Shown: positions 436 to 28,160 of the stretch, one piece after another
Layout of the letters: each line of letters starts with the position of its first letter
Position numbering within the stretch: position 1 is the first letter of the stretch
NCBI GenBank assembly: GCA_017395425.1
Contig: JAFPUM010000009.1
Coordinates: 1-37,451, forward strand
Length of the DNA stretch: 37,451 bases
From: Clostridia bacterium
GTDB lineage: Bacteria; Bacillota; Clostridia; Oscillospirales; Acutalibacteraceae
Direction: 5' to 3'
The notes under the pieces: generated by a model
Told to the model about the DNA's origin: nothing
Databases searched by the model: none
What the model saw: the letters and a program-made list of their open reading frames with translations, nothing else
Made by a program: the position numbers and the translations under genes

Positions 436-1618
436 TCTCTTCGCTGTTTTCGGGCAGCGACCCGTGAATGGTCAGCCCGGGCAGATAGCGTGACGTTTCG
501 ATGGGCAATCCCTGATTCCGGAGCGAATGTTCCGTCAGGCGCTTGACAATGTAATAAATCGTCGCGAAGAGCGGCACGCCCAGAATCATGCCGATGAAGC
601 CGAACAGCTTGCCGAACAGCAGAATCGCGATGGTGACATACAGCGCCGAAATGCCCGTGGAATTGCCGATGATACGCGGTCCGATGATATTGCCGTCGAT
701 CTGCTGCAATATCACGATAAAGATGATGAATACCAGACATTGCTTGGGCGATACAAGCAGCAGCAGGAACGCGCTGGGAATCGCGCCGATGAAGGGACCG
801 AACATGGGAATGACGTTGGTCACGCCGATCACCACACTGATGAGCAGGGCATAGGGCATTTGCAGAATCGACAGCACGATAAAACAGATGATGCCCACAA
901 TGAGCGAATCCAGCAGCTTGCCGGAGATGAAGCCGCTGAAAATGCGGTGCGCCTGCTTGATGGTTTCGTCGATCTCGTCGTTGACGCGCTCGTTCTTGCT
1001 GACGGCGTGGAAGAGCTTGCGGCATTGGCTGAGATAGCGTTCACGGTCGAGCAGCAGATAGATCGTGATGATGACCGTCAGCATGATGGTGACAATGGCG
1101 GAACCGATGGATACCACACTGTTGGCAATGTTGGTGATGGTGTTGACGAGATTGGTCTTGAGCCACGTCATCAGGCTGTTCTCAGCGGAATCGAGAATCT
1201 GGGTCATGTAAGTAGCGGCGCTGCTTTCGCTTGCCATGAAGGTCTGGAGTTTGGCAAATTGGACTTCGACCATGTTCGGCAGTTTTGGCAGCAGGTCTAC
1301 AATGCTGCTCCATAGCTGCGGAATCAGTACCCATGCCAGCAGTCCGATCACCGCAAAGACAATGATAGCTGTCAGCAGCACGGAAATCTGTCGGGCGGCT
1401 TTGGCGATGGGCGCAAACCTGGCGCACTGCTTCTCAAAGAATTCCGCCATCGGGCAGAGCAGATAGGCAATCAGAATGCCTGCCCAGAGAGGCTCCAGCA
1501 CCGACAGGAAATTGCCGACCACTTCCTTGACAAACGCAAAGTTGAACAGAATCAGAAAGAGCGCCACGCCTCCGGCAACCGCCAGCAGGACGGTGGTCCA
1601 TTTGGGCTTGACAAACAT
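431..1618 (-). CDS. AI-2E family transporter (PF01594-like permease)
   Basis: A 395-residue polytopic membrane protein, the usual length for the AI-2E transporter family (YdiK/YtvI/PerM-like). Hydrophobic helices lie at the N terminus (VLLAVAGGVALFLILFNF), around 30-60 and 75-100, and in a cluster in the C-terminal half. The family hallmark region, with FGPFIGAIPS and the following IDGNIIGPRIIGNSTGI, is present. Members are put forward as exporters of autoinducer-2, or in some cases as Na+/H+ antiporters, so the substrate cannot be read from sequence. The start at 1618 follows AGAGGTGA. The gene has its own promoter and stands alone. Its stop codon TAG is part of the adjoining repeat's AATTAGCCGCG left end, so the repeat may have replaced the native C terminus by a few residues (inference). 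Confidence 0.88.
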   Translation of the reverse strand: MFVKPKWTTVLLAVAGGVALFLILFNFAFVKEVVGNFLSVLEPLWAGILIAYLLCPMAEFFEKQCARFAPIAKAARQISVLLTAIIVFAVIGLLAWVLIPQLWSSIVDLLPKLPNMVEVQFAKLQTFMASESSAATYMTQILDSAENSLMTWLKTNLVNTITNIANSVVSIGSAIVTIMLTVIITIYLLLDRERYLSQCRKLFHAVSKNERVNDEIDETIKQAHRIFSGFISGKLLDSLIVGIICFIVLSILQMPYALLISVVIGVTNVIPMFGPFIGAIPSAFLLLLVSPKQCLVFIIFIVILQQIDGNIIGPRIIGNSTGISALYVTIAILLFGKLFGFIGMILGVPLFATIYYIVKRLTEHSLRNQGLPIETSRYLPGLTIHGSLPENSEEN

Positions 1619-1679
1619 GAAAAATCACCTCTTGAAATGGAATCGGTTTATGTCGAAAAAAGGTATGGCTACCGCCAAC

Positions 1680-1708
1680 ATGATAACACAATCCCCAAAG
1701 AAGTGCAA
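1680..1708 (-). promoter_or_regulatory. Sigma-A-type promoter of the AI-2E gene
   Basis: On the minus strand TTGCAC (1703-1708) and TATCAT (1680-1685) are separated by 17 bp, about 60 bp upstream of the start codon. Confidence 0.55.
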
Positions 1709-1835
1709 TAGACTATCTGAAAGAAACTGAACCGTTTATGAATGGTAAATTTAGATAAAAATACGATAAAACCGAAACGGTATTTCACCAATCCATGAAA
1801 AAACAAAAAATAACCAAGGGTGTAAAAGATTTTAC

Positions 1836-1864
1836 TTGACAGGCGGGTGAGAGGGTTGTATAAT
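1836..1864 (+). promoter_or_regulatory. Consensus sigma-A promoter of the ylxM-ffh operon
   Basis: TTGACA (1836-1841), a 17-bp spacer and TATAAT (1859-1864) make a perfect consensus promoter about 70 bp before the ylxM start. Confidence 0.85.
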
Positions 1865-1931
1865 AGGATAGCATTTGGTGTAAAGAACTTTGCTTTACAA
1901 TCCGCCCTGACCGACGGAGGAGGGATTCGCG

Positions 1932-2369
1932 TTGGCTGTCAGTCCTGAATTTACCGTGCTGCTGGATGTGTACGGCAGTCTCCTTACCCGTAAGGAACGC
2001 GATATGCTGGATTATTATTATAATGATGATCTGTCGCTCCGGGAAATCTCGGATAATGAGAATATTGCCCGGCGAGAGCGTCGGGAGGCGGGACAGCCGC
2101 CGGAAGGGAATTATCCGGAGAACGACACCATTACGCGGCAAGGCGTGAGGGATACCATCAAGCGCGCCGAAGCCAAACTCCTCGCCATGGAAGAAAAAAT
2201 GGGGCTGGTGCGCAGGAGCCGCGAAATGCGGGCGATCATTGCGGATATCCGGAAGAATGCCGAAAAAGCGGCGGTGCGGGCGTATCAGGTACGCGCGCCG
2301 AAGGAGATTATCACGGCGGCGTCGGATATCGATACGCTGGCGGAACAACTCGAAGAATATCTGAAATAA
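1932..2369 (+). CDS. ylxM: YlxM/p13-like protein (UPF0122), SRP operon
   Basis: A 145-residue protein related to YlxM, a small helix-turn-helix protein encoded next to ffh in Firmicutes and linked to the signal recognition particle. The N terminus (LLDVYGSLLTRKERDMLDYYYNDD) and the HTH parts LSLREISDNENI and TRQGVRDTIKRAEAKL match the family. The two halves of the HTH are separated by about 22 extra residues (ARRERREAGQPPEGNYPEND and flanks), which ordinary YlxM proteins lack. The C-terminal ~60 residues are helical and charged. Translation starts at TTG, 7 nt after GGAGGAGGG. It is the first gene of the operon, followed by a 500-bp repeat-filled gap before ffh. Confidence 0.82.
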   Translation: MAVSPEFTVLLDVYGSLLTRKERDMLDYYYNDDLSLREISDNENIARRERREAGQPPEGNYPENDTITRQGVRDTIKRAEAKLLAMEEKMGLVRRSREMRAIIADIRKNAEKAAVRAYQVRAPKEIITAASDIDTLAEQLEEYLK

Positions 2370-2411
2370 AGAAAAAAGAAAAAAGAATAAAGAAAAAGAA
2401 TAATGAAAAAA

Positions 2412-2800
2412 GCGCGAAGCGCCAATTAGCCGCGAAGCGGCGGGGATTCCAAAGGGACGAGTCCCTTTGGCGGGTGCAGGGCAGGAGCCCTGCTGGGGAG
2501 TGGGGCAAAGTCCCACAAGGCAGGCTTTAGCCTGCCGGGCGAGATGAGCCAATCTCTACAACGGGGAGGGGCGAATTCAAAGCAAGACGAGCCAATCTCT
2601 GAAACGGGGAAGGGCGAATTCAAAGCAAGACGAGCCAATCTCTACAACGGGGAGGGGCGAATTCAAAGCAAGACGAGCCAATCTCTACAACGGGGAGGGG
2701 CGAATTCAAAGCAAGATGAGCCAATCTCTGAAATGGGGAGGGCGAATTCAAAGCAAGACGAGCCAATCTCTGAAACGGGGAAGGGCGAATCCCCAAAAAG
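2412..2800 (+). repeat. Hairpin-array repeat, copy 3, between ylxM and ffh
   Basis: This copy starts with the mini-hairpin GCGCGAAGCGC, then CAATTAGCCGCGAAGCGGCGGGG, CCAAAGGGAC/GTCCCTTTGG, GCAGGGC/GCCCTGC, GTGGGGC-type and GGCAGGC/GCCTGCC stems, and ends in six copies of a 43-bp tandem unit. It lies in what is normally a tight operon junction. Frames read through it are repetitive (for example repeats of SQSLQRGGANSKQDEP) and lack a plausible ribosome binding site, so I do not call a gene. Confidence 0.85.
2543..2797 (+). repeat. Six tandem copies of a 43-bp unit
   Basis: The unit reads GACGAGCCAATCTCT, then ACAAC or GAAAC, then GGGGAGGGGCGAATTC and AAAGCAA. Units differ by a few bases, and unit 5 is shortened by one base in the G run. 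The related module occurs about twice in copy 1, once in the 16.5 kb copy and twice in the 28 kb copy, so the copy number varies between loci like a VNTR. Confidence 0.85.
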
Positions 2801-2877
2801 CAAATTGTGTCCATACGCGCAACCTTAGTGAATTTAGTGAATAATGAATAGTGAAAAGGGAAGGGAGAAGACAACAT

Positions 2878-4254
2878 ATGGCATTTGAAGGATTGACCGA
2901 AAAACTGACCAACGCGTTCAAAAAGCTGCGTTCCAAGGGCAAGCTCACCGAAGCCGACGTCAAGGAAGCCATGCGCGAAGTGCGACTGGCGCTGCTGGAG
3001 GCAGACGTCAATTTCAAGGTAGCGAAGGACTTCACCAACCGCGTCACGGAGAAAGCCATCGGCACCGAGATTCTCGAAAGTCTCACGCCGGGACAGCAGG
3101 TGGTCAAGCTGGTCAATGACGAGCTGACCGAGCTGATGGGCGGCGAAGCGTCCCGCATTGCCATTCCCAACCGTCCGCCCTGTATCATCATGCTGTGCGG
3201 CTTGCAGGGTTCCGGTAAAACCACCCACGCGGGCAAGCTCGCCTATATGATGAAAAAAGAAGGGCGTCATCCGATGCTGGTGGCGTGCGACGTGTACCGT
3301 CCCGCCGCTATCGAACAGTTGAAGGTTGTGGGTGCCAAGGCAAATGTCCCGGTCTTTGAGATGGGACAGATTGACCCCGTCAAGATTACCAAAGAAGCTC
3401 TGAAATATGCCGCCGATCACGGCAACGATATGGTGATTATCGATACCGCCGGTCGTCTGCACATCGATGAAGTGCTGATGAACGAGCTGAAAAACGTCAA
3501 GGCTGCTGTCAAGCCCCACGAAATTCTGCTGGTGGTGGACGCGATGACCGGTCAGGACGCGGTCAACGTGGCAAAGGCGTTTGACGACGCACTCGGCGTG
3601 GACGGCGTGATTCTCACCAAGCTCGATGGCGATACCCGCGGCGGCGCGGCGCTGTCGGTGCGTGCCGTGACGGGCAAGCCCATCAAGTTTGTGGGTACGG
3701 GTGAAAAGCAGGAGGATCTGGAGCAGTTCCATCCCTCCCGCATGGCGTCGCGTATTCTGGGCATGGGCGACGTACTCAGCCTCATAGAAAAAGCGGAGCA
3801 GCATATCGACGAGCAGAACGCTCTCGAATTGCAGCAAAAGCTCAAAACCAGCACCTTTGATTTCAACGATCTGCTCGCGCAGTTCCAGCAGATGAAAAAG
3901 ATGGGACCCCTCAAGAACCTTGTGGCGATGCTCCCCGGTATGGAACAGCACATGGGCGATATCGACATTGACGACAAGATGATTGACCGCATTGAGGCGA
4001 TCATCTATTCCATGACGCCCCGTGAACGCGCCAAGCCCGATCTGCTCAATGCCAGCCGCAAGCGCCGTATCGCAGCAGGCAGCGGCATGAAGGTGGAGGA
4101 CGTCAACCGTCTGGTCAAGCAGATGGAAATGATGCAGAAGATGTTCAAGCAGGTGGGCGGCAAAAATCCCAGAGGTATGCGGAACATGATGCGCGGCATG
4201 GGCGGCGGCATGGGTATGCCGGGCGGCTTCGGCAAAGGCAAAAACAGACGATAG
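2878..4254 (+). CDS. ffh: Signal recognition particle protein Ffh (SRP54 GTPase)
   Basis: Ffh binds the SRP RNA and signal peptides of nascent membrane and secreted proteins and docks with FtsY. The 458-residue product has the N domain (MAFEGLTEKLTNAFKKL), the GTPase G domain with GLQGSGKTT, DVYRPAA, DTAGR and TKLDG, and a Met-rich M domain ending in a Gly/Met tail (MRNMMRGMGGGMGMPGG). Length and order are typical. The ATG at 2878 fits the family N terminus and follows AAGGGAG; an upstream in-frame GTG at 2851 would add nine atypical residues. The normal ylxM-ffh and ffh-rpsP junctions are both expanded here, by a repeat array and a MITE-like element respectively. Confidence 0.97.
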   Translation: MAFEGLTEKLTNAFKKLRSKGKLTEADVKEAMREVRLALLEADVNFKVAKDFTNRVTEKAIGTEILESLTPGQQVVKLVNDELTELMGGEASRIAIPNRPPCIIMLCGLQGSGKTTHAGKLAYMMKKEGRHPMLVACDVYRPAAIEQLKVVGAKANVPVFEMGQIDPVKITKEALKYAADHGNDMVIIDTAGRLHIDEVLMNELKNVKAAVKPHEILLVVDAMTGQDAVNVAKAFDDALGVDGVILTKLDGDTRGGAALSVRAVTGKPIKFVGTGEKQEDLEQFHPSRMASRILGMGDVLSLIEKAEQHIDEQNALELQQKLKTSTFDFNDLLAQFQQMKKMGPLKNLVAMLPGMEQHMGDIDIDDKMIDRIEAIIYSMTPRERAKPDLLNASRKRRIAAGSGMKVEDVNRLVKQMEMMQKMFKQVGGKNPRGMRNMMRGMGGGMGMPGGFGKGKNRR

Positions 4255-4260
4255 GTTTTA

Positions 4261-4360
4261 GGAACTATGCAGAATTTAATCAGTCATTTTCTGCTTAAAA
4301 ATACAGTATGCTTGCGTGTTTCAGCAAGTGAAATGTATCAATTATTTCTGCATAGTTACT
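4261..4360. mobile_element. MITE-like palindromic element, copy 1
   Basis: This ~100-bp non-coding element starts with GGAACTATGCAGAA and ends with the near-complementary TTCTGCATAGTTA. A second copy at 12049-12147 is about 95% identical. The two arms are complementary over much of their length, with an inner CTTGC/GCAAG hairpin, so the whole element can fold as one long stem. Terminal inverted repeats, small size, lack of coding capacity and dispersed copies fit a miniature inverted-repeat transposable element. Here it sits 6 bp after the ffh stop, inside the operon. Confidence 0.75.
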
Positions 4361-7448: not shown

Positions 7449-7457
7449 ATGGGCGGT

Positions 7458-8861
7458 ATGGCAAATAGGGGGCTTTTGCAGAAAAATCAAATGCTCACGG
7501 TACGCATCGAGGGAATGACGGCGGAGGGCAGCGGTGTGGCGCGGCATGAAGGCATGGCGGTATTTGTCCCCCACGCGGCGCCGGGCGATACGCTGCATGT
7601 GAAGATCATCAAAGTGTCCAAAACCTACGCGGTGGGAAGAATCGAGGGAATTCCGGAAGAAGGTTCCGGACGCATCGTGCCGGACTGTCCGGCTTTTCCG
7701 CGCTGCGGCGGCTGCACGTTCCGGCATCTGGACTATGCCGAGGAATGCGCCGTCAAGCGGCAGCGGGTCAACGACGCGATCAAGCGCATCGGGGGTGTGG
7801 AACTCGAAGCCGAGGCTTTTCTGGCGGCGGAGCAGCCCGACCGTTACCGCAACAAAGCCCAGATCCCCTTCGGCGACGGCAAGGGGCAGACGGTCTACGG
7901 CTTTTACGCCGAACGCAGCCATTGCATTGTCCCCTTTACCGACTGCCGGCTTCAGCCGGAGATTTTCAACGCGATTGCGCAGGTGACGGCGAATTTTCTC
8001 CGTGAGACGCCCAACGATCTTTATGACGAAACCACCGGCAAGGGACGCTTCCGGCATCTTTACCTGCGGCGGGGTTTCGCGACGGGAGAGATCATGGTCT
8101 GCGCGGTGGTCAATGCCAACGGCTTGGCGCGGGAGGATGAATTTGTGCGCCGCATTCGGGCGGTTTCGCCTGAGATCAAAAGCATTGTGATCAACAGCAA
8201 CCGCGAAAAGACCAATGTCATTCTGGGCCAGAAATGCCGGACGGCTTGGGGCAGCGATACCGTCCGGGATGTTCTGTGCGGGCTGACGTTTGAGATTTCG
8301 CCGCTGTCGTTTTATCAGGTCAACCGGGTGCAGGCGGAGCGTTTATATACACAAGCCGCCGCATATGCCGGTCTGGACGGCAGTCAGACGGTGTTCGACC
8401 TTTACTGCGGCACGGGTACCGTGGGACTGACGATGGCACACAAGGCGAGGGCGCTTTACGGCATCGAGATCGTGCCGGACGCGGTGGAGAATGCCCGGCG
8501 GAACGCGGAATTGAACGGCATTGCCAACGCGGAATTTCTCTGCGCCGATGCTGCCGAAGGTACGAAGCAATTGCGGGAGCGCGGGATTGTGCCGGACGTG
8601 GTGTTGATCGACCCGCCGCGCAAGGGCTGTTCGGCGGAGGTGATCGCACTGCTGGACGAGCTTGCCCCGCAGCGGTTGGTCTATATCTCCTGCGACCCGG
8701 CAACGCTGGCGCGTGATGTGGCACGGCTTGCCGGACGCGGCTGGACACTTGAAGCATTCACGGCGGTGGATATGTTCCCCCGCACCGCCAACGTCGAGAC
8801 GGTGGCGAAATTCACCCAAGCCGATTCTGAGACTATGTATTGTATAAAAGGAAATGAATAA
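7458..8861 (+). CDS. rlmD: 23S rRNA (uracil-C5)-methyltransferase, TrmA/RlmD/RlmCD family, altered C terminus
   Basis: A SAM-dependent methyltransferase for C5 of 23S rRNA uridines (one Gram-positive enzyme, RlmCD, does both U747 and U1939). In order: a TRAM domain (MLTVRIEGMTAEGSGVAR), the Fe-S cysteines CPAFPRCGGC plus a later Cys in ERSHCIVPFTDC, the SAM motif FDLYCGTGTVGL, LIDPPRKGC and the catalytic YISCDPATLARD. The start is uncertain between 7449 and 7458, since GGGAGG lies 3 or 12 nt away. The last ~17 residues after VETVA (KFTQADSETMYCIKGNE) are unlike the family, where VETV is followed by a short hydrophobic end. A plausible original end, VETVALLFSSSF, is encoded 1966 bp downstream at 10758-10794, beyond the R-M cassette. 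Confidence 0.93.
   Translation: MANRGLLQKNQMLTVRIEGMTAEGSGVARHEGMAVFVPHAAPGDTLHVKIIKVSKTYAVGRIEGIPEEGSGRIVPDCPAFPRCGGCTFRHLDYAEECAVKRQRVNDAIKRIGGVELEAEAFLAAEQPDRYRNKAQIPFGDGKGQTVYGFYAERSHCIVPFTDCRLQPEIFNAIAQVTANFLRETPNDLYDETTGKGRFRHLYLRRGFATGEIMVCAVVNANGLAREDEFVRRIRAVSPEIKSIVINSNREKTNVILGQKCRTAWGSDTVRDVLCGLTFEISPLSFYQVNRVQAERLYTQAAAYAGLDGSQTVFDLYCGTGTVGLTMAHKARALYGIEIVPDAVENARRNAELNGIANAEFLCADAAEGTKQLRERGIVPDVVLIDPPRKGCSAEVIALLDELAPQRLVYISCDPATLARDVARLAGRGWTLEAFTAVDMFPRTANVETVAKFTQADSETMYCIKGNE
8792..8807 (+). repeat. Left 16-bp direct repeat of the R-M cassette (att-like)
   Basis: CGTCGAGACGGTGGCG encodes the VETVA codons of rlmD and is repeated exactly at 10758-10773. Sequence to its right falls in GC content and switches to the R-M genes. 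Confidence 0.8.
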
Positions 8862-8862
8862 T

Positions 8863-9792
8863 ATGCTGACAAGTATAGAAATATGTGCAGGAGCAGGCGG
8901 ACAAGCTCTTGGACTTGCTATGGCTGGATTTGTTCATGTCGCTTTGGTGGAGTATGAAAAAGAGTACTGTGACACTTTGAAATTTAATCGTCCAGAATGG
9001 TCTGTTATTCATAAGAATGTAAAGGATTTTTCGGGATTGCCTTATAGAGGGACGATTGACCTATTAGCAGGTGGTGTTCCGTGCCCGCCTTTTTCTGTTG
9101 CTGGAAAGCAGTTGGGCAGCAGTGATGAAAGAGACCTTTTTCCGGAAGCCATTCGCCTTGTTCAAGAGGTCAATCCGCGTGCGGTTATGCTCGAAAATGT
9201 GAGGGGATTTCTCGACCCGATTTTCAGCGAATACAGAGAAAGCATTCTTAGTCAAATTGCAGCTCTTGGCTATAAGGTGCAAATTAAACTCTTAAATGCC
9301 AATGATTACGGTGTTCCGCAGTTGCGTCCACGAATTGTGATTGTCGGGATCAGAAACGATATTTCAAAGGAGTTCCATTTCCCTGATGAACATCCTGAAA
9401 ATGTCCCAACGGTCGGAGAAACACTTTTTGATTTAATGAAAGCGAATGGCTGGAAAGGTGCAAAAGCATGGGCTGACGATGCCAATAAGATAGCACCTAC
9501 AATCGTTGGCGGTTCGAAGAAACACGGAGGTCCGGATCTGGGTCCGGTTCGAGCCAGAAAAGCGTGGGCGGAGTTGGGCGTTGATGGTCTTGGCGTCGCA
9601 AACGAAGCACCTGCCCCTGATTTTGAAGGAATGCCAAAACTGACACCTCGTATGATTGCCCGAATACAGGGGTTCCCTGACTCATGGTCATTTGGTTCAA
9701 AGAAAACTGCTGCGTGCCGTATGATTGGTAACGCATTTCCACCGCCTGTAGCGTGTGCTGTAGGAAAAGAGATAAGGAAGGTACTTGAATAA
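8863..9792 (+). CDS. DNA cytosine-5 methyltransferase (type II modification enzyme)
   Basis: It methylates C5 of cytosine in the recognition site of the partner endonuclease. All main motifs are present in order: I (EICAGAGGQALGLAMAGF), IV with the catalytic PCPPFS, VI (MLENVRGF), VIII (QLRPRIVIVG), a short target-recognition region, IX (RIQGFPDSW) and X (GNAFPPPVACAV). The 309-residue length is typical of a compact Dcm-type enzyme. ATG 8863 is chosen because AAAGG lies 11 nt upstream; ATG 8854 would be too close. The gene overlaps the end of the altered rlmD frame's region, and its TAA shares a base with the endonuclease ATG. GC content is clearly below that of rlmD, a sign of transfer. Confidence 0.93.
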   Translation: MLTSIEICAGAGGQALGLAMAGFVHVALVEYEKEYCDTLKFNRPEWSVIHKNVKDFSGLPYRGTIDLLAGGVPCPPFSVAGKQLGSSDERDLFPEAIRLVQEVNPRAVMLENVRGFLDPIFSEYRESILSQIAALGYKVQIKLLNANDYGVPQLRPRIVIVGIRNDISKEFHFPDEHPENVPTVGETLFDLMKANGWKGAKAWADDANKIAPTIVGGSKKHGGPDLGPVRARKAWAELGVDGLGVANEAPAPDFEGMPKLTPRMIARIQGFPDSWSFGSKKTAACRMIGNAFPPPVACAVGKEIRKVLE

Positions 9793-10649
9793 TGGATGCT
9801 CTTATTGCAAAAGCAAGGAAAAAATACCATAAGGCATTATTGGAAAATGGAGTACTGACGGTGGATAAGAAAGGAATATCCAGCAATGCAGACTCTTCTT
9901 CAAAACTGTCTATTGCGATAGCGAAGGGTATTGCTGACCGCTTGATGGCGGAAACACGTGATAAAGCAGTTGGGCAGACATCCGGAGCAAAGTTTGAACA
10001 GATTAACATGGAATTTTTGGCTGAAACATTTCCCAAAATGCAGAATTTACGCCCTGGCGAATGGCAGATTATCAAACTTGGAAATAGAAATTCCATAAAG
10101 ACTGCCAGTTTTGCGCAATATGAGCATTTGGAGTATCTGATGCGGCTGGTTGCCGATGATAAAGCTCTTGCAACCAGCATGGGTAATGATTATATGGTTG
10201 CCCCTGATGTGGTTGTATATCGTGAATTGGTAACGGATGAAGAGATAAATGCCACACAGATCATGGTTGATGACTCTGTTAGTACGATGGCGGATTTAAG
10301 AAAAGTAAACGGTGGGAAGCCCATCCTGCATGCCTCAATTTCTGCTAAATGGACAATGAGAAGTGATAGGGCTCAGAACAGTCGGACTGAAGCCCTTGGA
10401 CTTATCCGTAATAGGAAAGGGCATCTTCCTCATATTATGGTCGTAACTGGCGAACCCTTGCCTTCAAGGATATCTTCATTAGCTCTTGGCACTGGTGATA
10501 TTGATTGCATGTATCACTTCGCTTTGTATGAACTGGTTGAAGCTGTGAAAGAAACAGGAGCCGAGGACTCTATTGAAATGATTGATTCTTTAATATCGGG
10601 TAAGAGGCTAAAAGATATTAGTGACCTTCCGCTTGATTTGTGTGTTTAA
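9792..10649 (+). CDS. Type II restriction endonuclease, NgoBV/NlaIV-like
   Basis: The 285-residue protein resembles the NgoBV/NlaIV endonuclease family (PF09564), whose known members cut GGNNCC. I rely on remembered family features: the N-terminal GISSNADSSSKLS and KGIADRL stretch, GAKFEQINMEFL, the block LRPGEWQIIKLGN ending in FAQYEHLEYL, DYMVAPDVVVYR, and ILHASISAKWTMRSDRAQNSRTEALGLIRNRKGH. The last holds the acidic and Lys residues expected of a PD-(D/E)xK core (D in APDVVV; SAK). It starts within the methyltransferase stop (TAATG), so the two are translationally coupled. The pairing with a cytosine methyltransferase supports restriction function; the exact site is inference. Confidence 0.75.
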   Translation: MDALIAKARKKYHKALLENGVLTVDKKGISSNADSSSKLSIAIAKGIADRLMAETRDKAVGQTSGAKFEQINMEFLAETFPKMQNLRPGEWQIIKLGNRNSIKTASFAQYEHLEYLMRLVADDKALATSMGNDYMVAPDVVVYRELVTDEEINATQIMVDDSVSTMADLRKVNGGKPILHASISAKWTMRSDRAQNSRTEALGLIRNRKGHLPHIMVVTGEPLPSRISSLALGTGDIDCMYHFALYELVEAVKETGAEDSIEMIDSLISGKRLKDISDLPLDLCV

Positions 10650-10757
10650 TCTGATTAATCTCAGTATGATGAATCAACTTGTCAGATACTTATTCCTTTC
10701 TTTGTAATCTGGAAAGAAAAAACGGAAAAGGCGTCTGTTGTGGGAATGCGGCGATAC

Positions 10758-10773
10758 CGTCGAGACGGTGGCG
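10758..10773 (+). repeat. Right 16-bp direct repeat of the R-M cassette (att-like)
   Basis: An exact copy of CGTCGAGACGGTGGCG from 8792-8807, with the two starts 1966 bp apart. The bases upstream do not match rlmD, while the bases downstream continue as a plausible rlmD ending. Confidence 0.8.
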
Positions 10774-10794
10774 CTGCTTTTCAGTTCATCGTTT
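10758..10794 (+). pseudogene. Displaced 3' end of rlmD
   Basis: Read in the rlmD frame this gives VETVALLFSSSF then TAA. TrmA/RlmD-family proteins commonly end in VETV plus a few hydrophobic residues. The intact gene's frame at the matching point instead continues into 17 atypical residues. This suggests that the R-M cassette entered at the 16-bp site and cut off the original final codons. Confidence 0.65.
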
Positions 10795-10817
10795 TAACTG
10801 CTTTTTTTGACGCGATT

Positions 10818-10851
10818 GTCACGGCGTTCATACTGCCAGTGACCTTTTTCT
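10818..10851 (+). terminator. Rho-independent terminator, probably the original rlmD terminator
   Basis: GTCACGGC pairs with GCC(A)GTGAC around a short loop, with one bulged A, and is followed by CTTTTTC. It lies just after the displaced rlmD end. Confidence 0.55.
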
Positions 10852-10871
10852 CTTACTTTTTCGCTTAAATC

Positions 10872-10900
10872 TTGACTTTTCTCTTAAAAATTGATAAAAT
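10872..10900 (+). promoter_or_regulatory. Sigma-A promoter of the fic gene with repeated AAATCAAGAG boxes
   Basis: TTGACT (10872-10877), a 17-bp spacer and TAAAAT (10895-10900). AAATCAAGAG occurs at the -10 box (10897-10906) and again 30 bp downstream (10927-10936), about three helical turns apart. CTCTTA-type sequences lie upstream. These are candidate operators. Confidence 0.6.
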
Positions 10901-10950
10901 CAAGAGCAAATCATAAAAGTAAGCGTAAATCAAGAGAACGGAGTGATTCT

Positions 10951-12048
10951 GTGAAAGCATTTGATTATACCTTATTGGCAAAGCAGCGCTGGGATACAGA
11001 AGTAATGAATTACACAAATCTGATTCATGAATATAAAGGAAAACAGGATTTGTACTTGCGTCAAAAGCCGGTTGAATTGGAACGGTTGGTTGACATTGCC
11101 AAAATACAGAGTACCGAATCCTCCAACCGTATAGAGGGCATCGTGACAACCGCCAGCCGGATACAGGCGCTGGTGACAGAAAAAACAACCCCGCGGAACA
11201 GAGGGGAATCAGAAATCGCAGGATACAGAGACGTTCTCAATACCATTCATGAAAATTACGCATATATCCCGCTTCAAAGCAATTATATTCTTCAGCTCCA
11301 CCGTGACCTGATGCAATACACCGGCAATCCGGGCGGTGTGTATAAAAACGCCCAGAACTATTTGCAGGAAACCAAGCCGGACGGGACAACATTCATTCGT
11401 TTTACGCCGGTGCCTCCGTTTGAAACGGAGCCTTCCGTAATAGCGATCTGTGACAGCTACCGCAAAGTGACGGAGCAGCGCTTGGTGGACCCGCTGCTCG
11501 TGATTCCTGTGTTCATTGCGGATTTTTTGTGTATTCACCCCTTCTGTGACGGGAACGGGAGAATGAGTCGGCTGCTGACATTGCTGCTTCTGTATCAATC
11601 GGGGTATCAGGTGGGAAAATATATCAGTATGGAAAAGCATATTGAAAAAACCAAAGACGCCTATTACGACGCATTGGAACGTGCCTCCTACGGCTGGCAT
11701 GAAGGACAGGAAGATTCGGAGCCTTTCATCAAATATATGCTTGGCGTTATCCTTGCCTGCTGCCGCGAATTTGAGGAAAGGGTCGATGTGCTGCACCAGC
11801 CGGGCAGGAACGGAAAAGTGCCGGTAAAATCCAGTGCCATTGATATTGTGCGGGCGGCGGTGAAAAGCAGGGTCGGCGGTTTTACCAAAACGGAAATTCT
11901 CAATATCTGTCCCACAATCAGCCGCTCTTCTGTGGAATCCGGATTGCGGGAACTGATCGCAACCGGAGAAATACAAAAATTCGGGAACGGAAAATCCACT
12001 TATTATCTGCGGAGTGATGCCGCTGTTTTTCCGTCACAGGATGTGTAA
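10951..12048 (+). CDS. Fic-domain protein with N-terminal inhibitory helix and C-terminal HTH
   Basis: Fic enzymes usually AMPylate target proteins on hydroxyl side chains. The 365-residue protein has the Fic_N region with SSNRIEG, matching the inhibitory [S/T]xxxE[G/N] motif that blocks ATP binding, then the catalytic HPFCDGNGRMSR (motif HPFx[D/E]GNGR) near residue 195, and a C-terminal winged-helix-like part (GGFTKTEILNICPTISRSSVESGLRELIATGEIQKFG). GTG 10951 is chosen because GGAGTGA precedes it; the longer frame from 10891 would start inside the promoter. The intramolecular inhibitory helix means no separate antitoxin is needed. It stands alone, with a MITE copy beginning at its stop codon. 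The target is unknown. Confidence 0.9.
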   Translation: MKAFDYTLLAKQRWDTEVMNYTNLIHEYKGKQDLYLRQKPVELERLVDIAKIQSTESSNRIEGIVTTASRIQALVTEKTTPRNRGESEIAGYRDVLNTIHENYAYIPLQSNYILQLHRDLMQYTGNPGGVYKNAQNYLQETKPDGTTFIRFTPVPPFETEPSVIAICDSYRKVTEQRLVDPLLVIPVFIADFLCIHPFCDGNGRMSRLLTLLLLYQSGYQVGKYISMEKHIEKTKDAYYDALERASYGWHEGQEDSEPFIKYMLGVILACCREFEERVDVLHQPGRNGKVPVKSSAIDIVRAAVKSRVGGFTKTEILNICPTISRSSVESGLRELIATGEIQKFGNGKSTYYLRSDAAVFPSQDV

Positions 12049-12147
12049 GGAACTATGCAGAATTTAATCAGTCATTTTCTGCCTGAAATTACAATATGCT
12101 TGCGTGTTTCGGCAAGTGAAATGTATCAATTATTTCTGCATAGTTCC
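12049..12147. mobile_element. MITE-like palindromic element, copy 2
   Basis: A perfect 14-bp terminal inverted repeat, GGAACTATGCAGAA ... TTCTGCATAGTTCC, around the same interior as copy 1 at 4261-4360. It begins directly after the TAA of fic. It has no coding capacity. A TA target duplication is possible but the flanks are not clear enough to state it. Confidence 0.8.
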
Positions 12148-12266
12148 TAACCCGGACGGTATCCATTGCCATTCCACCCAAAAAGCCTGTGTGCTTTGTA
12201 TGAATTTTATAAAGAAATTGCTGTGTTTTCCTCAATTGTGAGCTTTTCTTGAACTTTTGAGGGGGG

Positions 12267-12296
12267 TAGTCAAAACCCACCAAAATATGGTATAAT
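12267..12296 (+). promoter_or_regulatory. Probable promoter of the solute-binding/EAL-stub gene
   Basis: A perfect TATAAT at 12291-12296, with a preceding TG at 12289-12290 (ATGG), and only a weak -35 (TAGTCA, 12267-12272, 18-bp spacer). It lies 65 bp before the chosen start codon. Confidence 0.5.
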
Positions 12297-12360
12297 GTGC
12301 AGACAATATACAGTTATGCAAAATAATGTATATAAATTCAAGGGAAGCGAGAGAAACCAA

Positions 12361-13254
12361 ATGAGAAAATGGAGACTGTCACTCTTTGGGGCAAAACGGC
12401 TGACCGCCTTCATGCTGAGCTTTGCTATGCTGGCATTGCTCACGCTGCCGTTGACGGCTCACGCGGCAAAAGGCGAGGGCAAGGTCGTGCGTGTCGGCTG
12501 GTACGAATCGCCGTTCAACACGACGGACGCCAAAGGGCAGCGAGACGGATATGCGTATGTATATCAGCAGAAAATCGCCGCCTATACCGGCTGGACATAC
12601 GAATATGTCGAAGGAAGCTGGCCGGATCTGTTGCAGATGCTCATCGATGGGAAGATTGACCTGATGAGCGACGTTTCTTATACGGAGGAACGTGCGGAGC
12701 TGATGCAGTTCAGTTCGCTGCCGATGGGCGCGGAGGAATATTATCTGTATATTGCCCCCGGAAACAATGACATCACGCTGAACGATTACAGTTCCTTCAA
12801 CGGCAAAAAGGTCGGCGTCAATGCTAATTCGTATCAGAAAATGCTGTTTGAGGAATGGGTGGAGACGCGCGGACTGGAGACAGAAATCGTTGCGTGGAAT
12901 GACAGTGAAAATGACCTTCTCGAAAGCCTTTCCAGCGGCGAGATCGACGCGATAGTGTCGATGGACGTATACGGCGACCCGCATCGCGCTATACCGCTGT
13001 TCAAGGTCGGTGCATCGGATTTTTATTTCGCGGTGAGAAATGACCGCGGCGATCTCCTGAGCGAACTGGATTCCGCGATGAATCTCGCGGTCATTGCGGA
13101 AGGCGTGGAGAATCATGTGGAATTGCAGCTGCTCCAGAAGATGGGCTGTGACATCGTGCAGGGATACTACTTCTCCAAGCCGCTTCCGGCTGCGGAATTT
13201 GAAAGACTTCTGAAAACCGAACTGGAAAAGCGTTTTAATAACGCGACACTGTAA
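12361..13254 (+). CDS. Solute-binding domain fused to the C-terminal stub of an EAL domain (internally deleted)
   Basis: Residues 1-36 form a signal peptide or anchor (RLTAFMLSFAMLALLTLPLTAHA). Residues ~40-240 are a periplasmic-binding-protein type 3 domain (VVRVGWYESPFN, GYAYVYQQKIAAYTGW, DLLQMLIDGKIDLMSDVSYTEER, FNGKKVGVNANSYQKMLFEEW). From residue ~242 the sequence becomes LAVIAEGVENHVELQLLQKM and then GCDIVQGYYFSKPLP, which is the last part of an EAL phosphodiesterase domain. Proteins with a solute-binding sensor, TM helix, GGDEF and EAL are common in Clostridia; here the TM, the GGDEF and most of the EAL (including the EAL motif) are missing, in frame. The product should be secreted or anchored without cyclic-di-GMP activity. 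ATG 12361 follows GGGAAG. It has its own promoter and terminator. Confidence 0.85.
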   Translation: MRKWRLSLFGAKRLTAFMLSFAMLALLTLPLTAHAAKGEGKVVRVGWYESPFNTTDAKGQRDGYAYVYQQKIAAYTGWTYEYVEGSWPDLLQMLIDGKIDLMSDVSYTEERAELMQFSSLPMGAEEYYLYIAPGNNDITLNDYSSFNGKKVGVNANSYQKMLFEEWVETRGLETEIVAWNDSENDLLESLSSGEIDAIVSMDVYGDPHRAIPLFKVGASDFYFAVRNDRGDLLSELDSAMNLAVIAEGVENHVELQLLQKMGCDIVQGYYFSKPLPAAEFERLLKTELEKRFNNATL

Positions 13255-13293
13255 CGGTTTCCCATTGGATGAAAAGTAAACACGACAATTCAA

Positions 13294-13341
13294 AAAAGGG
13301 CATCGGGACGGTACTTCCGTATCGTTTCCGATGCCTTTTTG
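13294..13341 (+). terminator. Rho-independent terminator after the SBP/EAL-stub gene
   Basis: GGCATCGG (13299-13306) pairs with CCGATGCC (13328-13335), followed by TTTTT; A-rich bases in front extend the pairing. Confidence 0.8.
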
Positions 13342-13357
13342 CCTTCTTAAAAAACAA

Positions 13358-13385
13358 TTGCAAAAACCAAAAAAACTGCTATACT
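13358..13385 (+). promoter_or_regulatory. Sigma-A promoter
   Basis: TTGCAA (13358-13363), a 16-bp spacer and TATACT (13380-13385), about 35 bp before the start at 13422. Confidence 0.6.
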
Positions 13386-13421
13386 ATGCTTATAAGCCAT
13401 ATGAAAGCGAGGTTTTTAGCA

Positions 13422-14228
13422 ATGATTCTGGAAGTGAAACAAACCAAGACCGTGGGAACCAATGAATTTGACGTGATATGCGACGGCACGCTGACCTATC
13501 GCGGCAGTGCGTCATGGTTTCCGATGGGAGTGGACAAGACAAACAAGGTGTTTCTGTACGATTTAGAGGGCAATGTGGTGTTTGAGACCAAGTACAGTCT
13601 GATGGAGAATCTGGCGGAAGCGTTAAAACCCTTCAAGAAATACACCAAAAAGGGACAAAAACTGCCGCAGTATCAGATATTGGATACCACAGGAAATGAT
13701 GTGGCTTGCTTCTACGATATGAGACGACTGCTGATTGACTGTACCATAGGGATTTCCTATGGCAGCCGGTTGGTTTTGGGTTACACGAGAGAAATGGGAA
13801 TGCGGGACGTGGTGTCTCTCTATGAAAATGACGCGCAGATCGGTCTGATCACGCACTCCCGGACGGTGGTTGACAATCAGGATCAATATCTGGTACATAT
13901 CCTGCCGACGTGTAACGACCTCATGCCGGTGATCGCCATGTACACGATTTTTTATGATTTCTGCCGTTATAATCACAGCGGACAGTATTTCAAAGGCGTA
14001 TCGTATCATATGTCCTACACCTATGATATTCACCAGAAAAAATACAACAAGAATTTTATCCGCCGCAATTTCGGGGAAGAAGAGCATCAGCGGGTGGAGC
14101 AGTTTATCAAAGGAGACGGCAAGTATTCCAACCAGACGAAAATGTGGCTGCTGTTTTTCGGCATATGGCTGCTGGTTCTGGGGATATTCGTTTTGGCGTG
14201 GTTGCTGAATAGGTATCTCCCTCAGTAA
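13422..14228 (+). CDS. Unknown protein with C-terminal membrane anchor, possibly LURP-one/Tubby-like
   Basis: A 268-residue protein. The soluble N-terminal ~235 residues are rich in beta-strand-type segments (ILEVKQTKTVGTNEFDVICDG, VFLYDLEGNVVFETKYSL, YQILDTTGNDVACFYD). They loosely recall LURP-one/Tubby C-terminal-like scramblase folds, but this is a weak impression. The C terminus is one hydrophobic helix, WLLFFGIWLLVLGIFVLAWLL, with a short tail, so the bulk is probably cytoplasmic and tail-anchored. ATG 13422 follows GCGAGG at 9 nt; upstream in-frame codons back to 13269 run through the terminator and promoter and are rejected. It has its own promoter and a downstream terminator, and no obvious partner. 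Confidence 0.75.
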   Translation: MILEVKQTKTVGTNEFDVICDGTLTYRGSASWFPMGVDKTNKVFLYDLEGNVVFETKYSLMENLAEALKPFKKYTKKGQKLPQYQILDTTGNDVACFYDMRRLLIDCTIGISYGSRLVLGYTREMGMRDVVSLYENDAQIGLITHSRTVVDNQDQYLVHILPTCNDLMPVIAMYTIFYDFCRYNHSGQYFKGVSYHMSYTYDIHQKKYNKNFIRRNFGEEEHQRVEQFIKGDGKYSNQTKMWLLFFGIWLLVLGIFVLAWLLNRYLPQ

Positions 14229-14241
14229 GGAACAGATCACA

Positions 14242-15097: not shown

Positions 15098-15244
15098 GTG
15101 TTTTTTTGGGATTTTGCGCTTATTATTTTTTTTGATGGATAATTTTCGGCAACGTACCCGGGATAGCTTTACAAAATGGTGATACACTTGACGATGCTCT
15201 GTGGTATACTGGAGCCAAGAAGCAATCGGAAACGAGTGATTTCT

Positions 15245-15877
15245 ATGGATGATCGGTTTGCAAAAGTGACATGGCTGTTTTTTGACATCGGTTCCACACT
15301 GGTGGACGAGCGGCTGGCATACGAACATCGGTTCCGCGACATGGCACAAGCGGCGGGCGTGAGTGCGTCGTATATAACCCGCACGGCACTGGATTTCTAC
15401 CGCCGGAACAGAAAGGGCGATGGGGAAACGGCAGAGCTGCTGGGCATTACGGTTCCCGCGTGGCACAGTGAGGATGAGATATTATATTCTGACGCGGCGG
15501 TATGCCTTGCCACGCTGCGGGAGAATTATCATATAGGTATCATTGCCAATCAGCTTCCCGGTACAGCGGAACGGCTGAAGGCATTCGGTATCGGAAAGTA
15601 TGTGGATGTGCTGACAGCCTCAGCGGAAGCGGGCGTGTCGAAGCCCCACCCGCGTATTTTTCAGATAGCGCTGGAACAGGCAGGCTGTCTGCCCGAAAAT
15701 GCCGTGATGATCGGCGACCGTGTGGATAATGATATCGTACCCGCCAAGGCACTGGGCATGAAAACGATATGGATCAGACAAGGCTTCGGGCAGTATTGGC
15801 AGATAACGGACGAAAGCGAAATGCCCGATGCCGAAATGGATAGCTTGAGCGATTTGATGAGAATGTTTGGAAGGTGA
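15245..15877 (+). CDS. HAD-like hydrolase
   Basis: A 210-residue HAD-superfamily protein (subfamily IA-like). Motif I is FFDIGSTLVDE: the nucleophile Asp is present, but the second Asp of DxDx(T/V) is Gly. Motif II is in DVLTAS, motif III the Lys of GVSKPHPRIF, and motif IV MIGDRVDNDIVPAKALGM. A cap is inserted after motif I. The Gly at the +2 acid/base position is known in some HAD proteins and would weaken ordinary phosphatase chemistry (inference). ATG 15245 is preferred, though its ribosome binding site (GAGTGA) is weak. The stop is 7 bp before the next gene's GTG, so the two are co-transcribed. Confidence 0.85.
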   Translation: MDDRFAKVTWLFFDIGSTLVDERLAYEHRFRDMAQAAGVSASYITRTALDFYRRNRKGDGETAELLGITVPAWHSEDEILYSDAAVCLATLRENYHIGIIANQLPGTAERLKAFGIGKYVDVLTASAEAGVSKPHPRIFQIALEQAGCLPENAVMIGDRVDNDIVPAKALGMKTIWIRQGFGQYWQITDESEMPDAEMDSLSDLMRMFGR

Positions 15878-15884
15878 CGATAGC

Positions 15885-16355
15885 GTGAAAGCAATCAGAG
15901 GTGTTCTCTACATCCTTCTGCAATGCACATGGGGACTGCCGCAGACGCTGTTGGGACTGGCGGTGTTTCTGTGGAATATCAGATGTCGGCATTATTGCTA
16001 TCATGGTGCGGTGGTGACGGAGGGCGCATTTCCGTTCAGCGCGTCCTTTGGGTTGTTTTTGTTTGTGACCACAAAGCCCGCGCGGGACAAGCGCAAAAAG
16101 GGCAGGATTCCCTATTTTCAGATGAAGCAATGCCTGCTGGTGCATGAATACGGACATACCATTCAGTCGCTGCTGTTCGGACCGCTGTATCTGCCTGTCA
16201 TGGGTATCCCGTCCGCCGCGTGGGGATTTCTGCCGTACTTCCGGCGCAAGCGTGCGTGCGGCGCGGCGTACTCCGATTTTTTTACGGAGCGGCTGGCGAA
16301 CCGTCTGGGCGAATGGGTGACGGGGGAGAGGTCTATGCAGGATGCTGTGATATAA
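15885..16355 (+). CDS. Small membrane protein with HEYGH metallopeptidase-like motif
   Basis: A 156-residue protein with two hydrophobic N-terminal segments (VLYILLQCTWGLPQTLLGLAVFLW and FSASFGLFLFVTT). HEYGHTIQS at residues 87-91 and beyond fits the zinc HExxH motif, a hydrophobic stretch follows (LLFGPLYLPVMGIPSAAWGFLP), and FFTERLANRLG near 132-142 could supply a third ligand (Glu135). I do not recognise a named family. GTG 15885 follows AAGGTGA at 8 nt; the earlier TTG at 15867 lies inside the HAD gene. A strong terminator follows, so this closes a two-gene operon. Confidence 0.8.
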   Translation: MKAIRGVLYILLQCTWGLPQTLLGLAVFLWNIRCRHYCYHGAVVTEGAFPFSASFGLFLFVTTKPARDKRKKGRIPYFQMKQCLLVHEYGHTIQSLLFGPLYLPVMGIPSAAWGFLPYFRRKRACGAAYSDFFTERLANRLGEWVTGERSMQDAVI

Positions 16356-16410: not shown

Positions 16411-16460
16411 GTGTGTTTACAGCGCTATGGGAAAAAATCTATTTTTGGGGGTTCCTTTTG

Positions 16461-16619
16461 GGAATTCGCCCGACCCCGTTGGTCATCTTGGCGTGTTTTG
16501 CTCGGCAGGCTTGCGCCTGCCTTGTGGGACGCCGTCCCACTCCCTGCCGGTGGCGCTGCCCCCGGACCCCTGCCAAAGGGACTCGTCCCTTTGGAATCCC
16601 CGCCGCTGCGCGGCTAATC
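16461..16619 (-). repeat. Hairpin-array repeat, copy 4, reading from trpB2
   Basis: On the minus strand it begins TTAGCCGCGCAGCGGCGGGG, overlapping the last bases of the trpB2 stop codon TGA. It continues with CCAAAGGGAC/GTCCCTTTGG, GTGGGAC/GTCCCAC, GGCAGGC/GCCTGCC and a single AACGGGGTCGGGCGAATTC module. Confidence 0.85.
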
Positions 16620-17997
16620 AGCAGCCGACTTTGGGCAGCGTGGCAAAACTGGCGGCAAGTTCCTCATCGGTGGGAATATAATCGGTCATCTCGCCGTTAT
16701 GGAATTTCTCATAGGCGAACATATCGAAATAGCCGGTGCCGGTCAGACCGAAGAGAATGGTCTTCTCCTCGCCGGTTTCCTTGCACTTGAGCGCCTCGTC
16801 AATCGCGACGCGGATGGCGTGCGAGCTTTCGGGCGCGGGCAGAATACCTTCTACGCGGGCAAACTGCTCCGCGGCGGCAAAGACGTCGGTCTGCACGACG
16901 GAGGTAGCTTCCATCAGACCCTCGTCATAGAGTTCGGACAGCACGGGGCTCATGCCGTGATAGCGAAGACCGCCGGCGTGGTTGGGCGCGGGAATGAAGC
17001 CGCTGCCGAGGGTGTACATCTTGGCGAGCGGACAGACCTTGCCGGTGTCGCAGAAGTCATAGGCGTACTTGCCTCTGGTCAGACTGGGGCAGGAGGCGGG
17101 TTCCACGGCGATAATGCGATAGTCCGCCTCACCGCGCAGCTTCTGTCCCATAAAGGGAGCGATCAGACCGCCGAGGTTGGAACCGCCGCCGGCGCAGCCG
17201 ATGATGATGTCGGGCTTGACGCCGTACTTGTCGAGCGCGGTCTTGGCTTCGAGACCGATGACGGACTGATGCAGCAGCACCTGATTGAGCACGCTGCCCA
17301 GTACATAGCGATAGCCTTCATGCGTGGTAGCCGCTTCCACGGCTTCGGAGATCGCGCAGCCCAGACTGCCGGTGGTGCCGGGATGCTCGGCGAGAATCTT
17401 CTTGCCGATCTCGGTGGTCATAGAGGGTGAAGGCGTGACCGACGCGCCGTAGGTGCGCATGACCTCACGGCGGAAGGGCTTCTGCTCATAGGAAACCTTG
17501 ACCATATAGACCTTGCAGTCCAGACCGAACAGCGAACACGCCATGGAAAGCGCGGTGCCCCACTGACCGGCGCCGGTCTCGGTGGTGACGCCCTTCAAGC
17601 CCTGCTTCTTGGCATAATACGCCTGTGCCATCGCGGAATTGAGCTTGTGGCTGCCGCTGGTATTGTTGCCCTCGTATTTGTAATAGATTTTGGCGGGCGT
17701 GCCGAGCGCTTCCTCCAGAAAGTAAGCTCTCACCAGCGGAGAGGGACGGAAAGTTTTGTAGCAGGTACGGATTTCCTCAGGAATATCAATATAAGGCGTA
17801 TCGTTGTCGAGTTCCTGCGCCACGAGATCCTCACAGAAGATGGGAGCAAGCTCTTCGGCTTTGAGCGGTTCGCCGGTGCCGGGATTGAGCAGCGGCGCGG
17901 GCTTGGTCTTCATGTCGGCGCGCACATTGTACCACTGCTTGGGCATTTCCTCTTCGCTGAGATAGATTTTGTAGGGAATGTTTCTGTCGGTTTTCAT
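16618..17997 (-). CDS. trpB2: Tryptophan synthase beta chain, TrpB2 type
   Basis: A PLP enzyme that condenses indole with serine (or O-phosphoserine) to tryptophan. The 459-residue length, longer than TrpB1 (~400), and the N-terminal IPYKIYLSEEEMPKQWYNV are typical of the TrpB2 group. The PLP lysine is Lys118 in NNTSGSHKLNSA, the phosphate-binding loop is GCAGGGSNLGG, and ETGAGQWG is the catalytic-loop signature. The start at 17997 follows AAAGGA; the longer frame would run back into the leader terminator. No trpA or other trp genes are present; TrpB2 enzymes often work without TrpA, salvaging indole (family knowledge). Expression is controlled by the Trp T-box upstream. Confidence 0.95.
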   Translation of the reverse strand: MKTDRNIPYKIYLSEEEMPKQWYNVRADMKTKPAPLLNPGTGEPLKAEELAPIFCEDLVAQELDNDTPYIDIPEEIRTCYKTFRPSPLVRAYFLEEALGTPAKIYYKYEGNNTSGSHKLNSAMAQAYYAKKQGLKGVTTETGAGQWGTALSMACSLFGLDCKVYMVKVSYEQKPFRREVMRTYGASVTPSPSMTTEIGKKILAEHPGTTGSLGCAISEAVEAATTHEGYRYVLGSVLNQVLLHQSVIGLEAKTALDKYGVKPDIIIGCAGGGSNLGGLIAPFMGQKLRGEADYRIIAVEPASCPSLTRGKYAYDFCDTGKVCPLAKMYTLGSGFIPAPNHAGGLRYHGMSPVLSELYDEGLMEATSVVQTDVFAAAEQFARVEGILPAPESSHAIRVAIDEALKCKETGEEKTILFGLTGTGYFDMFAYEKFHNGEMTDYIPTDEELAASFATLPKVGC

Positions 17998-27926: not shown

Positions 27927-28160
27927 GGCGAAGCCAATTAGCCGCGCAGCGGCGCGGGGTGCAGTAGCTGTCGCTAGCGACAGCTTTGGTGAGCTCCCTG
28001 CCGAGGTCAAGGGCGAGTAGCCCTTGCAGGGGACCGGGGGCAGCGCCACCGGCAGGCAGCACAACGTGCTGCCGAGCGAGACGAGCCAAGATAACCAACG
28101 GGGAAGGGCGAATTCCAAGCAAGACGCGCCAAGCTTTGCAACAGGGCAGGGCGAATTCCA
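27927..28160 (+). repeat. Hairpin-array repeat, copy 5, after purC
   Basis: It begins 4 bp after the purC stop with GGCGAAGCC, then CAATTAGCCGCGCAGCGGCG, GTCGCTAGCGAC, the CCGAGGTCAAGGGCG block, GGCAGCAC/GTGCTGCC, and two GGGCGAATTC modules with different inner bases (GATAACCAAC and CTTTGCAAC). Confidence 0.88.

Follow-up and report, generated by a model that had tools for sequence, protein, structure and literature searches.

Introduction

In streptococcal integrative and conjugative elements (ICEs) inserted in rumA, attL lies in rumA and attR in the serine integrase gene, the two genes have exchanged their 3′ parts, and the direct repeats measure 2–21 bp (PMC4701971, accessible part). Cis-mobilizable elements (CIMEs) of 1.2–13 kb are known that have att sites without an integrase, according to the accessible part of PMC7563491. 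Here we analyse the 3′ end of rlmD, the gene of the 23S rRNA U1939 C5-methyltransferase, in a 37,451-nucleotide stretch from a Clostridia bacterium of the family Acutalibacteraceae (contig JAFPUM010000009.1, assembly GCA_017395425.1), hereafter the window. There, two copies of a 16-bp repeat enclose a restriction-modification (R-M) pair, which is very probably the cargo left in a decayed integrative element of the rlmD-specific large serine integrase type. The original prediction, made from the letters of this stretch, had placed an R-M cassette between 16-bp direct repeats at the end of rlmD and had named this gene end as an integration site; the repeat proves exact in both places, and the accessible part of PMC4701971 confirms the site.

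With the single-serine-integrase ICEs of rumA/rlmD, as that part of the source describes them, the locus shares attL in rlmD, attR in the 3′ end of the integrase gene, the exchange of 3′ ends and the repeat length; unlike them, it has lost the integrase and transfer genes, and about 2 kb with the R-M pair are left. With CIMEs, as described in the accessible part of PMC7563491, it has in common its decay, the absence of integrase and conjugation genes, the retained cargo and a size within their range, but it occupies a serine-integrase site, shows no neighbouring ICE or integrative and mobilizable element, and has an unrecognisable left att arm. The best-supported description is a CIME-like remnant in which the R-M pair stands between a doubtful attL and an attR half-site. 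The kind of element is already known and an R-M-only rlmD remnant is an additional case; among the papers found on rlmD/rumA elements and NgoMIV, judged by titles and abstract openings, none describes such a remnant.

Table 1. Features of the rlmD locus, in window coordinates.
Feature	Position	Strand	Basis
rlmD, 23S rRNA U1939 C5-methyltransferase, target gene	7449–8861	+	TIGR00479; start codon picked by eye
Left 16-mer, attL core	8792–8807	+	exact repeat; inside the VETVA codons of rlmD
Left element-side sequence, new rlmD tail with stop overlapping the methyltransferase start	8808–8853	+	33/34 bases with G001
C5-cytosine DNA methyltransferase	8854–9792	+	PF00145, E 9.8e-72; aligns with M.HaeIII (1dct)
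NgoMIV-type type II restriction endonuclease	9792–10649	+	PF09015 1–275 of 275, E 1.5e-125; NgoMIV (1fiu), E 1e-96
AT-rich spacer, GC 0.31	10650–10727	.	probable deletion junction at the right end; integrase similarity begins at 10728
Last bases of a large serine integrase gene (RRLLWECGDTVE), forming the element side of attR	10728–10764	+	37/37 to G007
Right 16-mer, attR core	10758–10773	+	exact repeat
Probable original rlmD end (TVALLFSSSF, stop)	10765–10797	+	in frame; by eye like relatives' native tails
HAD-type hydrolase gene	15176–15877	+	65% identical relative directly after attR in G007; resumed ancestral order
Next ancestral gene	15867–16355	+	relative after the HAD gene in G007 (83%), directly after rlmD in G017 (73%)

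The right junction and the end of an integrase gene

The sequence CGTCGAGACGGTGGCG occurs as an exact 16-mer at 8792–8807 and 10758–10773, with no further exact copy in the window. Across the genome, its inner 14 bases match exactly at these two positions and at no other; when up to three mismatches are allowed, the window holds three sites against 0.54 expected, a number reached in 2 of 100 shuffles. The only open reading frames (ORFs) between the copies are those of a C5-methyltransferase and an NgoMIV-type endonuclease, and no relaxase or conjugation gene is among them. No integrase ORF lies there either, as the original prediction held, but it had missed the right end, where a large serine integrase gene has left its final 37 bases.

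Searched with positions 10640–14230, 18 same-genus genomes (the window's own included) yielded a match of 37/37 bases between 10728–10764 and G007:C63:3486–3522 (E = 2.8e-11). The protein encoded there is a large serine integrase with Resolvase, Recombinase and Zn-ribbon domains. In G007 it ends with RRLLWECGDTVE-CVCLMTRKES and is directly followed by a HAD-type gene; the window, in the same frame, reads RRLLWECGDTVE-TVALLFSSSF-stop. Because the last 37 bases of an rlmD-type integrase gene precede the right copy in frame, the right junction is, by its sequence, an attR: its host side is the rlmD end, its element side the truncated end of the integrase gene, and it lies inside the 3′ end of that gene, as attR does in the known elements. 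The same integrase end rules out a chance repeat, and of the two readings offered by the original prediction it bears out the remnant of a larger element. Even without its integrase gene, a decayed serine-integrase insertion at rlmD can thus be recognised: the last ~35 bases of that gene stand ahead of a second rlmD end and in its frame.

The element of G007 (loci L159 and L160) has this entire right arm and the same two chromosomal genes after attR. What sets it apart from the window is the integrase it still carries; a further contig has its rlmD, extended by ~115 residues, together with parA/parB-like genes (assigned by eye). With at most one mismatch, the right-arm pattern is found in 2 of 398 genomes of the family, the window's own and G007, and its exact form in none of the viral contigs searched. 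Integrases 78–80% identical to that of G007 (in G747, G319 and G613) agree with the window's right arm at 26–30 of 40 bases; for two that are more distant the figure is 16–18 of 40. Used as a plasmid query, the G007 integrase returned at least 5000 records and was uninformative.

The R-M cassette might instead have inserted directly with target duplication, as reportedly happens to R-M systems elsewhere. The 16-bp direct repeat, the DNA homology of the pair, limited to its coding region, and an inverted repeat peculiar to this locus, close inside the ends, would all suit such an event. It would leave the integrase gene end before the right copy unexplained, however, and the repeat is not flanked by target and cassette alone; we judge this route extremely improbable.

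Present and probable original ends of rlmD

TIGR00479 matches rlmD with 408 bits (E = 4.1e-122), and the last position of the model falls at residue 449 of the 469 tested; the sequence past the core therefore does not belong to the conserved enzyme. This agrees with the prediction that the frame, whose end reads KFTQADSETMYCIKGNE, now terminates in 17 atypical residues. From the right copy, the rlmD frame continues as VETVALLFSSSF to a stop at 10795–10797; the earlier reading had followed it correctly but ended it at 10794, three bases short. It had also taken this segment for the original end of the gene, which is likely: it is in frame and resembles native tails by eye, for instance the G015 end VETVALLSRSNP (93% over 30 bases, core included).

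Two further parts of the prediction fared differently. GC content does drop across the cassette (0.436 over 8808–10757 against 0.535 for the window), a value as low being found in 14 of 711 overlapping windows of the same size, those over the cassette included. The terminator placed after the right copy is not upheld: three matches in the region, against a shuffle mean of 2.1 (sd 1.6), are at chance level, and those after the right copy are the near-palindromic 16-mer itself.

We compared the rlmD tail with those of 17 same-genus relatives, taking as similar a score reached by at most 6 of 200 shuffles. Apart from the sister species G001, none of the other 16 has a KFTQAD-type tail, and the pieces of these 16 contain no match to the methyltransferase or the endonuclease; to this extent the relatives behave as the original prediction expected. 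The KFT tail was also considered as a native end and rejected: the G011 end (VETVALFTR) looks alike by eye, but only G001, with the same insertion, scored as similar. In 17 other same-genus genomes, no credible second core copy was seen 3′ of rlmD on the same strand (degenerate pattern, 19 pieces of which two are extra pieces of G004, ~0.1–19 kb past rlmD). Degenerate-pattern matches in G005 at 10861 and G008 at 3654 (oriented pieces) have no rlmD-like tail and were taken as chance.

The left junction

The left copy lies within rlmD and its 16-bp repeat falls in the 2–21 bp range, as in a described attL; the element side is unrecognised. In nine related elements the direct repeats are as short as GA, so that the crossover probably fell within GAG at 8796–8798, and positions 8799–8807 may already be element sequence. 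The left arm (GAGACGGTGGCG-AAATTCACCC...), counted from the crossover, matches G001 at 33 of 34 bases, but the 13 other arms compared (G917 being left out) at 15–20 of 34; the arms of G007 and G016 are identical to each other. The left-arm pattern has no match in viral contigs, and the tail peptide none in plasmids. G004 has an arm beginning with GAGACGGTGGCATTAC; the left copy could be what a deletion has spared of such an arm, namely its first bases, or the left arm may come from a second rlmD element. In both cases a working attL is doubtful.

In 5 of the 17 same-genus relatives rlmD bears the arm start of a serine element, ACTTTCCCACAAA, in some as a trace before an early stop (L089 in G007, L090 in G016, L078 in G008, L086 in G004 and L085 in G014). 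The rlmD site has therefore been hit repeatedly in this genus.

Related elements at rlmD and their cargo

At E ≤ 1e-60, 7 of 118 genomes have a relative of the G007 integrase; at E ≤ 1e-120, 24 of 394 do. We examined 25 integrase loci, and in 11 of them the available piece includes rlmD, upstream and in the same orientation. These elements have attL in rlmD and attR in the 3′ end of the integrase gene, the integrase running into an rlmD-like tail. Nine of the 11 are simple at both ends, and their rlmD–integrase repeats all share GA and measure 2 bp (GA alone) to 11 bp; the 16 bp of the window exceed this range and stay within the published one. The contig L248 of a viral collection encodes an integrase of ~660 residues with a long C-terminal extension, by eye like those fused to rlmD. 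This fits the extension being the integrase's own end before integration, which would predict such a form.

In G460, G134 and G597 the integrases run into the extension of another element, which suggests tandem arrays of rlmD elements. The ends of our locus might accordingly stem from two tandem elements with a deletion between them, the left arm and the R-M genes from one and the right arm from another of the G007 type. This is a version of the decayed-element reading and does not exclude it. The left arm unlike that of G007 beside a near-identical right arm, the integrase of a second subfamily in G001 and the three integrases just named speak in its favour; no tandem array is seen in the window species, and the deletion of a single element's left arm, given the G004 arm, accounts for the same facts. 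We regard such an accretion as possible, though not likely.

The cargo scan drew on five ORFs per element, the first of 90 codons or more in each of the 11 (55 in total); 20 of these, picked by hand, were scanned with PADLOC, with no control set of other sites. Known defence genes lie close behind attL in 5 elements: G442 and G075 have type I R-M, G489 has DruE1, G460 a type III R-M endonuclease and G732 a weaker LmuB-like protein. The other six have no counted defence gene among the scanned proteins; matches of an ABC-type protein in G024 were dropped as generic ATPase matches. Repeated defence systems beside rlmD fit the R-M genes as cargo near attL, and with 5 of 11 elements concerned (20 of 55 ORFs scanned) the site merits a census. 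Going further, the cassette might be a stripped-down defence satellite between integrase half-sites, picked up and re-docked under the rlmD promoter by passing rlmD integrases. We find this highly unlikely; if true, defence genes would generally be exchanged through the slot of rlmD elements that lies next to attL.

Other integration geometries were also seen: the rlmD-type integrase of L218 (G613) sits at another site, within a frame that by eye is IS30-like; those of L192 (G090) and L221 (G632) are convergent with rlmD.

The restriction-modification pair

The stop of rlmD overlaps the start of the methyltransferase gene (8854–8861), and the methyltransferase stop likewise overlaps the endonuclease start. 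Owing to these overlaps the pair is probably co-expressed with rlmD, and it probably acts as an ordinary NgoMIV-type R-M system. Residues 2–285 of the endonuclease align to 2–286 of NgoMIV (1fiu); unlike NgoMIV, the window endonuclease is preceded by a C5-methyltransferase that overlaps rlmD. The enzyme is full-length and conserves KWTxRSDRAQN, which we take to be the catalytic and RSDR region of NgoMIV-type endonucleases. NgoMIV recognises GCCGGC. This site is found 19 times in the window against 31 expected, a modest shortfall that is not conclusive on avoidance.

The PF09015 family is present in 3 of the 398 family genomes, the window's own included; the other two have no rlmD on their short pieces. 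In 42 loci with relatives of the endonuclease, the flanks (up to 5 kb, often shorter) contain no rlmD match, and the DNA homology of the pair to other genomes stops at the coding ends. On both counts, mobility of the R-M pair as such was rejected. The original prediction had also proposed looking for other cargo at this site, and these loci and two family genomes revealed no second copy of the R-M cargo beside rlmD.

The same survey bears on the other reading offered at the outset, a minimal unit of ~2 kb moved in trans. As a functional CIME in the strict sense, the locus would have two working att sites and draw its integrase from elsewhere in the cell or from a neighbouring element. The 16-bp repeats are exact, ~35 bases of the integrase-side arm are retained at attR, and the CIMEs introduced above provide a precedent. 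Yet the integrase is truncated, the left arm is not recognisable, G001 has kept the same left junction, and none of the loci with endonuclease relatives shows rlmD nearby in the available flanks. The genome of the window (98.67% complete, 62 contigs) has no match to the G007 integrase at E ≤ 1e-60, nor to the integrase fragment of G001 at E ≤ 1e-100, and distant serine recombinases could lie below either cut-off. A unit still mobilised in this manner is unlikely.

An inverted repeat of 30 bases (23/30 paired; 8845–8874 and 10677–10706) lies just inside the ends of the R-M pair, and none of 500 dinucleotide shuffles reaches its score. Chosen post hoc, it has as its best counterpart in 40 relatives of the pair one of 20/30 (L036), whose 60 shuffles reached 19.

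The sister species and the history of the locus

In G001, rlmD is 96% identical to that of the window. Left junction, tail and methyltransferase start are as in the window up to position 9047, beyond which other sequence follows and interrupts the methyltransferase gene. The simplest reading is an insertion older than the divergence of the two species, which took a different course of decay in each; a transfer between them is possible.

For the decayed integrative element, the following course may be proposed. An element with R-M genes near attL would have integrated at rlmD, the crossover at GA in GTCGAGACGG swapping the 3′ ends of rlmD and the integrase gene. Later, a deletion reaching from the endonuclease to the final ~35 bases of the integrase gene would have taken out all that lay in between; the left arm would likewise have been lost, or would derive from another rlmD element. 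The R-M pair would now depend on the chromosome and is probably no longer mobile by itself. Defence cargo can, it appears, outlive its carrier, here overlapping the stop codon of rlmD.

Several observations weigh against this course. Past its first 12 bases, the left arm matches those of the 13 relatives at only 7–10 of 22 bases, a comparison made without a shuffle control. Unlike either common type, it faces a right arm nearly identical to that of G007, and the two ends may not share one element; in G007 itself the left and right ends sit on different contigs. Beyond the core, the right tail is similar, by the shuffle threshold, to none of the same-genus rlmD ends. The empty site anticipated by the original prediction was seen neither in the same species nor in a close relative, the only close relative, G001, sharing the left junction. 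On a separate contig, G001 carries a serine integrase fragment, the 5′ part, which at 53% identity to that of G007 belongs to another subfamily; by eye, the ends of this contig and of C331, which bears the R-M remnant, resemble repeats, and a link between the two is conjectural. Finally, 14 of the 25 integrase loci have no same-strand rlmD on their piece (13 without rlmD, one in opposite orientation).

In that G001 contig (L173, G001:C275, reverse strand 817–3834), the integrase 5′ part, with Resolvase and Recombinase domains, is fused to GGDEF and EAL domains in an uninterrupted frame of 1005 codons.

Chromosomal order beyond attR

Compared with the ancestral order, the window has additional DNA between the repeats and from attR to 15176, the latter interval with a Fic gene, a dispersed repeat, an ORF with SBP and EAL domains and others. 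With extra DNA in both intervals, the site has been altered more than once.

The Fic protein gene (10891–12048) follows attR immediately and matches the PADLOC model SoFic (E = 6.8e-40), a second defence-like gene on the other side of attR. Directly 3′ of it lies a repeat of ~105 bases resembling a miniature inverted-repeat transposable element (12046–12152), palindromic by eye, with a further copy at 4260–4360; it recurs many times at 89–99% identity in the same genome, and 13 of 17 same-genus relatives also have it. The ORF at 12295–13254 joins an SBP_bac_3 domain to an EAL domain of which no more than the final 37 positions are present; its end is 93% identical to the GGDEF-EAL gene of G001 (L173), and it looks internally deleted. 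A second family of dispersed repeats is found at ~16440–16620, 1–374 and 27937–28116 of the window, with many copies in G001.

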